A stretch of 64,000 bases of DNA from Neisseria bacilliformis. GTDB taxonomy: Bacteria > Pseudomonadota > Gammaproteobacteria > Burkholderiales > Neisseriaceae. The position numbers were made by a program, and so were the translations under genes. Shown here in pieces: positions 3,581 to 40,465 of this stretch. The notes below the pieces were generated by a model. The model was not told where the DNA came from, searched no databases, and saw only the letters and a program-made list of their open reading frames with translations. Position 1 is the stretch's first letter. Each line of letters opens with the position of its first letter. The stretch covers positions 558,001-622,000 of the forward strand of contig NZ_CP059571.1 of the NCBI RefSeq assembly GCF_014055025.1, read 5' to 3'.

Positions 3581-3994
3581 AGCTGCCCGCTGCGGTGTGT
3601 GTTGAGGCCGTCTGAAAACGGGTTTTTCAGACGGCCTTTTTGTTTTTGCGGCAGGGAACGCGTGCGTCGCCTTGGGGCGACACACCCTACGGATGGTTCG
3701 GCACGGGCGGGATTTGGTTGCTCAGGTAGGGTGTGTGGCGCAAGCCACGCACGCGGTTTCGGTTGCCTGCTGTAAAGGCCGTCTGAAAAGCAGGTTTGTT
3801 TTTCAGACGGCCTCAACATTTCTCTTAATCCCAACCGTCCGACCGCGTGCGTCGCCTTGGGGCGACACACCCTACGGATGGTTCGGCATGGGCGGGATTG
3901 GCCGCCGAGGTAGGTCGGGCATTTATGCCCGACAAACGCGGCAACAAAAAAACGTCGGGCATGAATGCCCGACCTACTGCGTTTTCAGACGGCC
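3581..3994. repeat. Intergenic repeat island between tehA and the sensor kinase
   Basis: No gene is supported. Contents in order: the DUS terminator of tehA (3605-3648), hairpin repeats of the CACGCGGTT family at 3657-3690, 3726-3758 and 3842-3875, an inverted DUS pair (about 3778-3812), and a pair of GTAG palindromes in opposite orientation (3910-3933 and 3954-3977) around a 20-bp A-rich spacer. Confidence 0.75.
3605..3648 (+). terminator. DUS terminator after tehA
   Basis: AGGCCGTCTGAAAA (3605-3618) pairs with its complement (3624-3637), followed by TTTTTGTTTTTG. The U-rich tail on the plus strand makes this a good intrinsic terminator for tehA. Confidence 0.8.
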
Positions 3995-33355: not shown

Positions 33356-36499
<3,144 letters not shown>

Positions 36500-37164
36500 G
36501 GGGATTCCTTTGCGTTTGGGGTAGTGAGGCCGTCTGAAAAACGGGTTTCAGGTAGCCTTTTTTCAGGTAGCCTTTTCAGACGGCCTTTGCCGACGGGGTA
36601 GGGTGTGTGGCGGTTTTTCAGACGGCCTCTGTTGCTGCGGTAGAGTGTGTGGCTCTGCCACGCACGCGGTTTGCGGGTTGCGGCGGCGGGGTGTGCGTCG
36701 GTTTTTCAGACGGCCTCTGTTGCTTGCGGCGGCTTACTCCCTCTCCCGCTTGCGGGGGAGGGTCGGGGTGGGGCTGTTGCCGCTTCGGCGGACGGCGGCG
36801 AAAGCAGTTCTGCGAACTGCCACCCCCTCCCCAACCCTCCCCCGCGCGGGCGCAGGGGAGGGGCAGAATGGCGGTTTGGTTTTTTCAGGCTGCCTTTCAG
36901 ACGGCCTGTTCCTGCATAAATTCCAAGTAGCCAAGTAGGTCGGGCATTTATGCCCGACGCTTTTAAATTTCCGGCATATGGCCTATCAGACAAATATGCC
37001 GGTGTTTGTCGGGCATAAATGCCCGACCTACTGCTTTCAGACGGCCTCTACCGTAGGTCGGATACTTGTATCCGACAAATGCACGGGCGGCATCAAGGGG
37101 TGTTTTTCCCCTGCGGGGAAACGTCGGATTCGAGAATCCGACCTACGGCTCGGTTTGGCGGTTT
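36500..37164. repeat. 665-bp repeat island splitting hsdR from hsdS
   Basis: No gene. It holds DUS hairpins at both ends, CACGCGGTT-family repeats (36597-36611 partial, 36640-36672), the long inverted pair 36738-36864 with hairpin GCAGTTCTGCGAACTGC inside, a GTAG palindrome pair (36935-36958, 37008-37031) and a second, variant pair with GTCGGAT arms (37053-37076, 37123-37146). Confidence 0.75.
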
Positions 37165-38619
37165 TCAGACGGCCTCTGAGGCCGTCTGAAAAGATGTGTC
37201 GGCGGGCAGTTCGCCGTTTAGGAGTTTGGGCAGGAGGGTGTCTCGGACATTTTGTAACCTTACGCTTTGTTTAATATTTTCGTTTATTTTGGCAAATATC
37301 GATTCAGAAATTTCAGCAAACTTTTTCAACAAAAATTCGTTGGGAACAGCAATTTCAAAACTAGGGACGGCATCTTTACCAAGATGAAGAACAGTTGTTC
37401 CAGTGCAAAAAGACTGGGTATGAGCCTGAAAAGCAACAGTCATTGCCATGCAGTAAAGGAAATATTTGTAAACGCTGTTATTTGGCCTGACTACACCAAC
37501 ATCCAAAGAAATAATCAAATGTTCATAGCGGTTATCCGACATAACCATTGCAGGTTTTCCAATAACATCTGCTGCCTGTGTTACGTCGGTATAAGCAATA
37601 ATTAAATCACCCGCAAAAACTTCCTGCTCTGGTTTATAAGTTCCTGTGTATTCTTTCAATCCATCCAAACGGTAACCGCCGCCACGATTAAAGGATTTAA
37701 GCGTTACCAAAGCTGTTTTTGAGGATTCTAATTCACTGCTTTTATAGGATTTTCCTTTGATGACTTTGGCAATATCGCCCACTTTTTTCACCTCCCACCC
37801 CGCCGGCACTTCGCCGTAGCTGTCTATGGAAACGAGGGCGGAGGGGAAGGCGGCGGCCAGGGTGGCGAGTTGTTGGTGGCGGGCGGGGTTTTGTCGGGCA
37901 AGGGCGGCAAGGGCGGCGGGGGGGTGGCCGCTGAGGGCGGACATGGCGGCGGTTTCGGCTTCTTCTTGGCTGCCGCCCGCCGCCAGCACGGCGGCTTTGG
38001 CGCGTGTCGGCTCGAAATCGACAAACCAGCTTTTGTAGAGGGCTTGGGCTGTTTGTTCGAGAGTTTGGTTGGTTTGGGTGTTGAGGTGGATTTTCTTGTG
38101 GATAGCTCGCGTAACATCTACGATTACATCTAAATAGTTCTCTGGCGGTAATGCAATAACCGCATCCTCAATTTCAATAGGATTAAAAGCAGGATATGCA
38201 GCACCATCCGCAACAGCTACTAAATGCGCCGTGAATATATCTGAGGTTATTAGAGCATATAAATACCAAGCCAGTTTTTCACTATCTGCACTAATGACAC
38301 AAAATCCTGTTGATGCAATCAGGTTAGAACCTGCTTCTTCAATGAAAGCAAACTGTTTGAGGTTTGGACGAACCGTTGAAATAATTATGTCATTATTAGT
38401 CAGGGTGCGTTTGGCTCTTGATGGTGCATCCTCTATTTTTATCAGTGTAGGTTCTTCAAATTTACCCGTGGAAGTTGAAGAAATATCTATGTACCTGATG
38501 TCAGTCAGGGCAGATTTTTTTGTAAGCGTTTTACCATTAATTTTGGCAATATCGCCTAACCTTATAAATTGCCATCCGCTGGGTAATTTAAATCCTGTAT
38601 TCCTAATATCAAAAGCCAT
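37165..38619 (-). CDS. hsdS: Type I restriction-modification specificity subunit
   Basis: A 484-residue HsdS with two target-recognition domains. The first runs from about residue 14 (LPSGWQFIRLGDIAKINGK) to 160, the second from about 270 (VPAGWEVKKVGDIAKVIKGK) to 420. They are joined by conserved helices (NLDVIVDVTRAIHKKIHLNT type) and the RAKAAVLAAG segment. The recognition domains are much richer in A and T than the joining parts, the usual sign of exchange. The gene overlaps the end of hsdM by 11 bp. The last residues (DTSFQTASEAV) are read from a DUS pair after the expected end LLPKLLNGELP. Confidence 0.93.
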   Translation of the reverse strand: MAFDIRNTGFKLPSGWQFIRLGDIAKINGKTLTKKSALTDIRYIDISSTSTGKFEEPTLIKIEDAPSRAKRTLTNNDIIISTVRPNLKQFAFIEEAGSNLIASTGFCVISADSEKLAWYLYALITSDIFTAHLVAVADGAAYPAFNPIEIEDAVIALPPENYLDVIVDVTRAIHKKIHLNTQTNQTLEQTAQALYKSWFVDFEPTRAKAAVLAAGGSQEEAETAAMSALSGHPPAALAALARQNPARHQQLATLAAAFPSALVSIDSYGEVPAGWEVKKVGDIAKVIKGKSYKSSELESSKTALVTLKSFNRGGGYRLDGLKEYTGTYKPEQEVFAGDLIIAYTDVTQAADVIGKPAMVMSDNRYEHLIISLDVGVVRPNNSVYKYFLYCMAMTVAFQAHTQSFCTGTTVLHLGKDAVPSFEIAVPNEFLLKKFAEISESIFAKINENIKQSVRLQNVRDTLLPKLLNGELPADTSFQTASEAV

Positions 38620-40328
38620 AACCCAACTCCTCCAAGTTCTTTTTAATCTGTGCTTCCAGTTCCGCGCCCTGCGCGAATTGTTCGTTGAGCTGTTTGGTCA
38701 GCCGTGCCATTTTTTCGACGAAGGGTTCGCTGTCTGCTTCGGCTTCCACTGTGCCGACGTAGCGGCCGGGCGTTAAAACATAGTCGTTGCGGGCGATTTC
38801 TTCTGTTGTGGCGGCGTGGCAGTAGGCGGGCTGGTTTTGGTAGCGGTCGGCTTTTTGCCAGCGGTGGTAGGTGTCGGCGATGCGTTCGATGTCGGCGGGG
38901 GCGAGGTCGCGTTGGGCGCGGTCTTTCAGGTAGCCCATGTTGCGGGCGTCGATAAAGAGGGTTTGGCCTTTTTGCGGTTTGGCTTTGTGCAGTATCCAGA
39001 TGCAGGCGGGGATTTGGGTGTTGGTGAAGAGCTGGCCGGGCAGGGCAATCATGGCTTCCACTAAATCGGCTTGGATGAGGGCGCGGCGGATGTCGCCTTC
39101 GCCGCTGCTTTGGCTGCTCATGGAGCCGTTGGCGAGCAATAAGGCCATGCGGCCGGCGGGGGCGAGGTGGTGGAGCATGTGTTGCAGCCAGGCGTAGTTG
39201 GCGTTGCCTTCGGGCGGGGTGCCGTATTGCCAGCGGGGGTCGCCGGCGAGTTCTTCGCTCCACCAGTCGGAGGCGTTGAACGGGGGGTTGGCCATGACGA
39301 AGTCCATTTTTTGGTCGAGGTGCTGGGGAGCGGTGAAGGTGTCGGCGTTGCCTTTGCCGAAGTTGTATTCGAGGCCGTGGATGGCCATGTTCATGGCGGC
39401 GAGTTTCCAGGTGGTGCGGTTTTTTTCCTGGCCGTAGATGGAGATGTTGCCGGTATTGCCTTGGTGGGCGCGGATGAAGCGTTCGGTTTGGATGAAGAAG
39501 CCGCCGCTGCCCATGGCGGGGTCGTACACGCGGCCTTGGTAGGGTTCGAGCAGGGCGACGATGAGGGAGACGATGGCTTTGGGGGTGAAGTATTGGCCGC
39601 CGCGTTTGCCTTCGGCCAGGGCGAAGCGGCCGAGGAAGTATTCGTAGACGTGGCCGAGGATGTCTTTGGCGGTGAGTGTGCCGTGGCTTTGGAAGGTGTT
39701 TTGGCTGAAAAGCTGGATGAGGCCGATGAGGGTGTCGCCGCGCACGCCGTAGCCGCTGATGCGTTCGAGCACGCCTTTGAGGCGGGGGTTGTCTTTTTCT
39801 ACGGCGTCGAAGGCGTTGTCGATGAGTGCGGGCACGCTGTTGAAGCGGCCGCCCCAGGGCAGTTCCGCGCCGTTTTCAAGCAGGGCGGCAGCGGCGATTT
39901 CGTGCCAGCGGGCGGGACGGGGCACCCAGAAGACGTTGTCTTGGGTGTAGTAGTCGCGCTCTTCGAGTTCGGCTTCGAGGGCGGCTTGGTAGTCTTCGGG
40001 GCTTTCGTAAAGCGCGGGATCGAGATAGAGGGGGTTTTCGGGGTTTTGCAGGTCGGCAAGGATTTTGCGCTGCTGGGCGGCGAAGGTGTCGGAGATGTAT
40101 TTGAGGAAAATCAGGCCGAGGACGATGTGTTTGTAGTTGGCGGCGTCCAGCTCGGAGCGGAGCTTGTCGGCGGCTTTCCAGAGGGTGTCTTCGAGGCTGT
40201 GGAGGAAGGTTTGCGTTTCAGCGGCTAAATCGGGCTGTTGGCTGTTGGCTGTTGGCTGTTGGCTGTTGGCTGTTGGCTGTTGGCTGTTGGCTGTTGGCTG
40301 TTGGCTGTTGGCTGTTGGCTGTTGGCAT
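38609..40328 (-). CDS. hsdM: Type I methyltransferase subunit, phase-variable and out of frame as sequenced
   Basis: The gene encodes an N6-adenine methyltransferase: N-terminal HsdM helices (LEDTLWKAADKLRSELDA, IFLKYISDTF), motif I DPAMGSGGFFIQ and catalytic NPPFNASDWW. The frame is open from within the repeat run but has no ATG, GTG or TTG upstream of GTG 39925, which would remove the helical N-terminal domain. The only start with a ribosome site (AAAAAGGA) is ATG 40328, at the edge of 13 copies of a 7-bp repeat. With 13 copies that ATG is in another frame and stops at TGA 40218-40220 after 36 codons. With 12 or 15 copies it joins the HsdM frame to give 570 or 577 residues with a PTANSQQ-repeat head. 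The stored sequence is thus the OFF state. Confidence 0.88.
40234..40324. repeat. Heptanucleotide tandem repeat, 13 x GCTGTTG
   Basis: Thirteen perfect copies of GCTGTTG (CAACAGC on the coding strand) fill 91 bp immediately after the hsdM start codon. Seven is not a multiple of three, so gain or loss of one unit shifts the frame. Runs of this kind change length by slipped-strand mispairing in Neisseria and Haemophilus. Confidence 0.97.
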
Positions 40329-40465
40329 TATACTACAAATCCTTTTTATTTCAAATAGTTAAATAAGAAAATAAAGGCATAGGGTTGGGATTGGCGGCGA
40401 TTTTAGCAGACGAACGGCGGACGGGGTTTTGTTTTACAATCGCGCTTTTTGCCGGGGATGCCGCC

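Follow-up and report, generated by a model that had tools for sequence, protein, structure and literature searches.

A heptanucleotide repeat tract at the start codon of a probably phase-variable type I methylase gene in Neisseria bacilliformis, and the HsdM clade to which it belongs

In Neisseria bacilliformis, a type I methylase gene, hsdM, begins with a row of identical heptanucleotides, behind which the frame set by the start codon is not that of HsdM. The locus raises the question of whether such a gene is broken or can be switched on and off by a change in repeat number. The original prediction held that the tract makes hsdM phase-variable and that the sequenced state is OFF. Here, we analysed the gene within a stretch of 64,000 nucleotides (the window) and together with its relatives. 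We estimate a probability of about 85% that hsdM is subject to phase variation by repeat slippage and was sequenced in the OFF state.

The hsdM locus and its reading frames

The features needed for the argument are the following:

40235..40325, minus strand: CCAACAG x13, perfect copies, counted in the sequence; proposed phase-variation tract
40326..40328, minus strand: ATG, inferred hsdM start codon, from the Shine-Dalgarno-like motif at the tract-nearest ATG in 42 of 43 tract genes, the window's included
40218..40328, minus strand: 36-codon open reading frame from the ATG in the sequenced (OFF) state, ending with TGA 40220-40218; frame reading
38609..40327, minus strand: HsdM reading frame, open across the tract to TGA 38611-38609; frame reading, domains and motifs
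39923..39925, minus strand: GTG, the first ATG, GTG or TTG of the HsdM frame; frame reading
40340..40344, minus strand: AAGGA, Shine-Dalgarno-like, 11-12 nt 5' of the ATG (a long spacing); sequence
40327..40354, minus strand: TTGAAA-16-TATAAT, promoter-like, 11 of 12 matches, with the -10 box overlapping the ATG; sequence
37165..38619, minus strand: hsdS, 484 aa, overlapping the end of hsdM by 11 bp, with a Methylase_S domain; open reading frame and domain search
33356..36499, minus strand: hsdR, 1047 aa, with HSDR_N, SWI2_SNF2 and a HindI-like C-terminal T1RH-like_C domain (PF11867); open reading frame and domain search

The first CCAACAG copy (40325) directly abuts the ATG (40328-40326), and the thirteen copies that had been counted behind this codon are exact; the unit had been written as GCTGTTG, a rotation of it on the plus strand. 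Translation from the ATG does run outside the HsdM frame and meets the TGA at 40220-40218 after 36 codons, and the HsdM frame itself is closed just 5' of the tract by a TAA (40330-40328). By frame arithmetic, the ATG is in frame with HsdM when the number of CCAACAG copies is divisible by three, so that the proposed restoration by 12 or 15 copies is correct; the deposited assembly has 13. The tract is pure, lies in the 5' coding region, has a unit whose length is not a multiple of three and is open in all frames, as is asked of an SSR gene. Nowhere else in the genome, a single contig of 2,492,712 bp, do three CCAACAG copies stand in tandem (11 overlapping matches, all within the hsdM tract).

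As had been stated, the HsdM frame, open from 40327, contains no ATG, GTG or TTG before the GTG at 39925. This GTG is residue 135 of the frame translation (P0001), and initiation there would, as had been argued, delete the helical N-terminal part, namely 90 of the 163 residues of the HsdM_N match (residues 45-207), about half of it, and the first four predicted helices (H31-57, H62-94, H110-121 and H125-128). Because these 90 residues would be lost, the internal GTG is not plausible as a rescue. CTG 40150 was considered as a start and rejected, as its position is already within HsdM_N; 5' of it, the HsdM frame was searched for CTG, ATT, ATC and ATA and contains none. No codon was found that would give full HsdM with 13 copies, and the assignment of the sequenced gene to the OFF state is supported, provided that ATG 40328 is the start codon.

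Domains and motifs identify the gene as encoding a predicted type I HsdM, an N6-adenine methylase: the translation contains HsdM_N (PF12161, 1.2e-21) at residues 45-207 and N6_Mtase (PF02384, 1.7e-115) at residues 220-530, the motifs DPAMGSGG and NPPF are intact and the 541 HsdM codons 3' of the tract stay open. With an intact hsdS and a HindI-like hsdR beside it, hsdM appears to be part of a HindI-type type I restriction-modification system. In the predicted fold (24 aligned rows, overall mean pLDDT 75.0), residues 1-32, encoded by the tract, have pLDDT values below 50, helices start at residue 31 and the block-mean pLDDT is 82-95 over residues 41-130. The low values over the tract and the confident HsdM_N helices therefore indicate that the tract can form a disordered tail before a normal HsdM.

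The target-recognition parts of hsdS (37200-37800 and 38100-38550) have a GC content of 37-41%, whereas the hsdS centre has 65% and hsdM and hsdR about 61-62%; such a difference would be expected of recognition domains swapped from a low-GC donor. The gap of 665 bp between hsdS and hsdR (36500-37164) contains the uptake-sequence-like 12-mers AGGCCGTCTGAA, AGGCTACCTGAA and AGGCAGCCTGAA, which we take to be several uptake-sequence dialects. AGGCCGTCTGAA occurs in 110 copies in the window and is presumably the DNA uptake-type motif of Neisseria or a close relative. A hairpin, GTCGGGCATTTATGCCCGAC, is repeated in both orientations at 3914, 12388, 12434, 16798, 16839, 36939, 37008 and 41278, and forms facing pairs three times in the window.

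Tracts at the same place in related genes

In the window's family, 7 of 83 genomes have a close HsdM match (E<=1e-60), the window's own being counted. Two relatives of the same genus (L010 in genome G032 and L011 in genome G028) have an ATG followed by another heptamer, ACCAAGC, in four and two copies, respectively, and both tracts are out of frame too. In L010, the HsdM frame continues for about 110 codons beyond the end of the match before it meets a stop. Among named genomes, 33 loci with 59-70% identity were found, in genera including Haemophilus, Rodentibacter, Aggregatibacter, Avibacterium, Gallibacterium, Actinobacillus and Muribacter; we take the genera in 32 of the 33 titles to be Pasteurellaceae. 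The exception, L042, from a record titled Pseudomonas stutzeri NCTC11607, encodes this HsdM with 70% identity; the record may be mislabelled, since the matching locus L088 groups with Haemophilus-like loci in the tree. The unit of the window, CCAACAG, is also found in Muribacter muris (L052), in runs of seven and three. In the family holding the Haemophilus sputorum locus (Pasteurellaceae), the gene is present in 67 of 140 genomes (E<=1e-150), and all 67 loci (L075-L141) were retrieved and scanned for tracts, a few of them being cut by contig ends. Among viral contigs searched for a copy from other strains, only L142 was found (62% identical, not used), and all matches of a plasmid search were less than 60% identical.

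A tree was built from 72 of 75 HsdM proteins, with three short rows omitted. Every row with at least three tract copies falls within one clade of 62 rows with full support (100/100), which is made up of 59 Pasteurellaceae rows and three from the window's family. The window thus lies inside a tract-bearing clade of HindI-type HsdM proteins (100/100), on a long branch whose sister is a group of 24 rows from Rodentibacter, Aggregatibacter and Haemophilus (87/92). The best tree parts the window from L010 and L011; a single clade of the three is not rejected (AU p 0.166). At least three copies are present in 46 of the 62 rows, two copies in four and fewer in 12, and since these 12 rows have fewer than two copies, the tract has been lost or locked in some lineages.

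The units differ widely. Rows with at least three copies have 16 distinct units, seven of 7 nt, six of 5 nt and three of 4 nt, and none has a length of 3, 6 or 9 or any other multiple of three. Over the 50 rows with at least two copies, which have 17 units, a minimum of 21 changes from one unit to another is needed to fit the tree. Each of the 17 can be read through in three frames without a stop and lacks ATG, GTG and TTG; compared with shuffled units, this freedom from stops gives P 0.11, a weak signal taken alone, because the units are poor in T. The peptides that they encode (PTANSQQ, TAQHS, QPAS, RHDTT and others) are unrelated.

Tracts are absent from the controls. None was found in 84 other HsdM_N genes of the same Pasteurellaceae genomes, two of which have other short repeats (GCAx4 in L232 and A9 in L238), compared with 44 of the 62 clade members from Pasteurellaceae and 46 of 65 clade rows overall (Fisher 4e-23, a value that ignores relatedness). 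Nor does a tract occur in any of the 27 homologs from other families (23 class-sample loci and L013-L016), each of which has its ATG in frame. In the tree reconstruction, absence of a tract had been assigned manually to the ten rows outside the clade, and the resulting count of one change in tract presence is therefore not independent evidence; a separate scan found a tract of at least three copies in none of the ten. Chance two-copy repeats lie near three outside rows (L012, L074 and L134).

How units have been exchanged was addressed with close pairs, defined by gene-body DNA at least 85% identical. In all 20 close pairs with different units, the DNA upstream is only 52-59% identical (shuffle baseline 49%), and the gene bodies are 87-97% identical. 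Pairs with the same unit range from 48% to 99% upstream, and the two sets differ with a Mann-Whitney p of 0.01, calculated on pairs that are not independent. As 17 of the 27 same-unit pairs have 66% upstream identity or less, the upstream region is frequently replaced without a change of unit too, but every unit change in this comparison was accompanied by upstream replacement. In the few lineages that these pairs represent, the pattern would be accounted for by recombination events that end at the tract or close to it. We tentatively propose, at somewhat less than even odds, that a frame-shifting tract at the start codon has been under selection across the clade, in Pasteurellaceae as well as in the three genomes of the window's family, and that its unit has been exchanged at least 21 times, perhaps by recombination together with the upstream region. 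What is inherited would then be the property of being a switch and not the sequence of the tract.

Start signals, selection and the proposed switch

The choice of ATG 40328 as the start codon agrees with the tract genes in general, although the spacing of 11-12 nt in the window is long and counts against it, and the 42 of 43 given above is the unbiased count; an alternative count of 59 of 60 is partly built in, because there the ATG had been picked by the Shine-Dalgarno-like motif. The same ATG overlaps the -10 box of a near-consensus promoter, which counts against the switch model. An alternative reading is that the tract acts in transcription or as a leader, with the TTGAAA-TATAAT box as the real promoter, transcription starting inside the tract and the copy number setting the expression level or the 5' end rather than the frame. 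The 11 of 12 match at 40354-40327 fits this idea, and similar arrangements recur: TTGAAA-TATAATG is found in L010, L011 and L113 and TTGACT-TATAATG in L103 and L109, which together with the window are the loci with a good -35 box, the other TATAATG loci lacking a good one. However, if TTGAAA-TATAAT were the sole promoter, the mRNA would begin inside the tract and lack the ATG, and 3' of such a start the HsdM frame offers no ATG, GTG or TTG before GTG 39925. In addition, 17 of the 60 loci scored, among them that of the window, have TATAATG and 43 do not, and a spacer element would not need units whose length is in no case divisible by three, as holds for all 16. We consider this explanation improbable.

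An explanation that we regard as marginally less probable still is that hsdM is a decaying pseudogene or the repeat number an assembly miscount; the tract would then be incidental, and the frameshift either permanent or an artefact. Of 43 tracts that could be scored from the tract-nearest ATG, 33 are out of frame, and six relatives (L090, L095, L101, L119, L130 and L132, from genomes G228, G136, G233, G154, G174 and G234) have further stops inside the match, both of which could speak for decay. Two of the in-frame alleles, L090 and L140, have truncated bodies. However, the 43 tracts are spread over all three frames, 10 being ON and the others divided between the two OFF frames (20 and 13), and 10 of 43 does not differ from the one third expected for random phase (p=0.20). 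The 541 codons below the window's tract are open with their motifs intact, and the arrangement recurs in many assemblies. Furthermore, all 13 close pairs that were chosen for comparison have dN/dS values of 0.04-0.21, and in nine of them both alleles are OFF. Purifying selection between out-of-frame alleles makes OFF look like a state rather than decay, the six relatives with stops notwithstanding. That the tract is kept for its peptide as a low-complexity N-terminal tail, with the frame effect being secondary, is very unlikely: the tail is predicted to be disordered and compatible with the fold, but the unit peptides are unrelated, none of the 16 units has a length of 3, 6 or 9 and all 27 distant homologs manage without a tract.

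The conserved position of the tract, the units of 4, 5 and 7 nt, the presence of all three frames, the purifying selection and the tract-free controls strongly support the predicted phase variation of hsdM. According to the proposed mechanism, the CCAACAG tract would gain or lose whole units by slipped-strand mispairing during replication. As each unit shifts the frame by one, HsdM would be made only at copy numbers divisible by three. In the ON state, the tract would encode a disordered N-terminal tail of PTANSQQ repeats ahead of the normal HsdM fold. OFF cells would have no M subunit although hsdS and hsdR are intact, and could thus assemble neither the M2S methylase nor the R2M2S nuclease. 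A regulon that follows the methylation state, as the original prediction proposed, would be a possible further consequence. We infer that slippage takes place in the strain of the window, that ATG 40328 is used and that OFF cells lose both methylation and restriction.

Known phase-variable systems and the significance of the tract

Phase variation of hsdM has been described in Haemophilus influenzae. The hsdM3 gene of non-typeable strains (NTHI1838, 556 aa) has a CGAGA tract at its 5' end, and reads from one isolate show mixed tract lengths (PMC6646836). Zaleski 2005, as cited in PMC2651432, estimated how often a (GACGA)4 tract in the type I methylase gene HI1287 switches. The original prediction had named the pentanucleotide hsdM of H. 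influenzae as a published analogue; the publication stands, but the relationship is closer, as the hsdM of the window is very probably an ortholog of this gene with another unit. Loci with a CGAGA tract (L086, L091, L092 and L097) share the window's clade in the tree, and L087 encodes 556 aa in frame; the orthology of NTHI1838 rests on the unit, the position and this length and not on a direct alignment. Both genes belong to the same HsdM family and have a tract near the start codon that sets ON and OFF by the frame, and the kind of switch is thus already known. In contrast to the CGAGA/GACGA tracts of H. influenzae, the window has a heptamer and a host of another family, and switching has been published for the former, while the locus of the window is known from its sequence. 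In two pairs of H. influenzae isolates, it was the OFF isolate that had more transcript of hsdM and hsdS (PMC6646836), and the OFF state therefore need not lower the amount of mRNA.

Other systems are similar in part. The gonococcal NgoAV system is also a phase-variable type I system of Neisseria, but its poly-G tract sits in hsdS and alters specificity rather than switching the enzyme ON or OFF (PMC9577141, PMC7394358). The type III mod phasevarions (modA, modB and modD) likewise switch methylation by tracts in a methylase gene (PMC5953494, PMC7394358); they involve a different type of enzyme, and it is for mod that regulons have been reported. Heptanucleotide phase variation is known from pglE of Neisseria with its CAAACAC tract (PMC5953494, Table 3), although this is a pilin glycosylation gene and the unit differs from CCAACAG. 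Repeats have been counted in 2% of hsdM genes, and the same article describes type I switching by repeats as shown only for the non-typeable H. influenzae hsdM and the gonococcal hsdS (PMC7394358). The Neisseria phasome paper names mod genes and an S subunit, describes units longer than five as little studied in Neisseria and has no occurrence of hsdM in the main text (PMC5953494). In the literature searched, the coverage of which was partial, we found no paper on a heptamer hsdM and no description of a family-wide exchange of units, and we do not claim their absence in print; the unit itself, CCAACAG, is shared with M. muris.

Taken together, what is added to the known H. influenzae case is a tract that is found at one place across a whole clade with changing units. 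Type I methylase genes with a frame-switching tract are accordingly a recurrent feature of one HsdM lineage, which comprises many Pasteurellaceae genomes and three of the window's family, and not a peculiarity of H. influenzae. An hsdM of this kind could be labelled as broken by automatic annotation, and the methylome of a single culture could miss such a restriction-modification system. In addition, the natural variety of units at one site provides a ready set for comparing how repeats of 4, 5 and 7 nt slip within the same gene.
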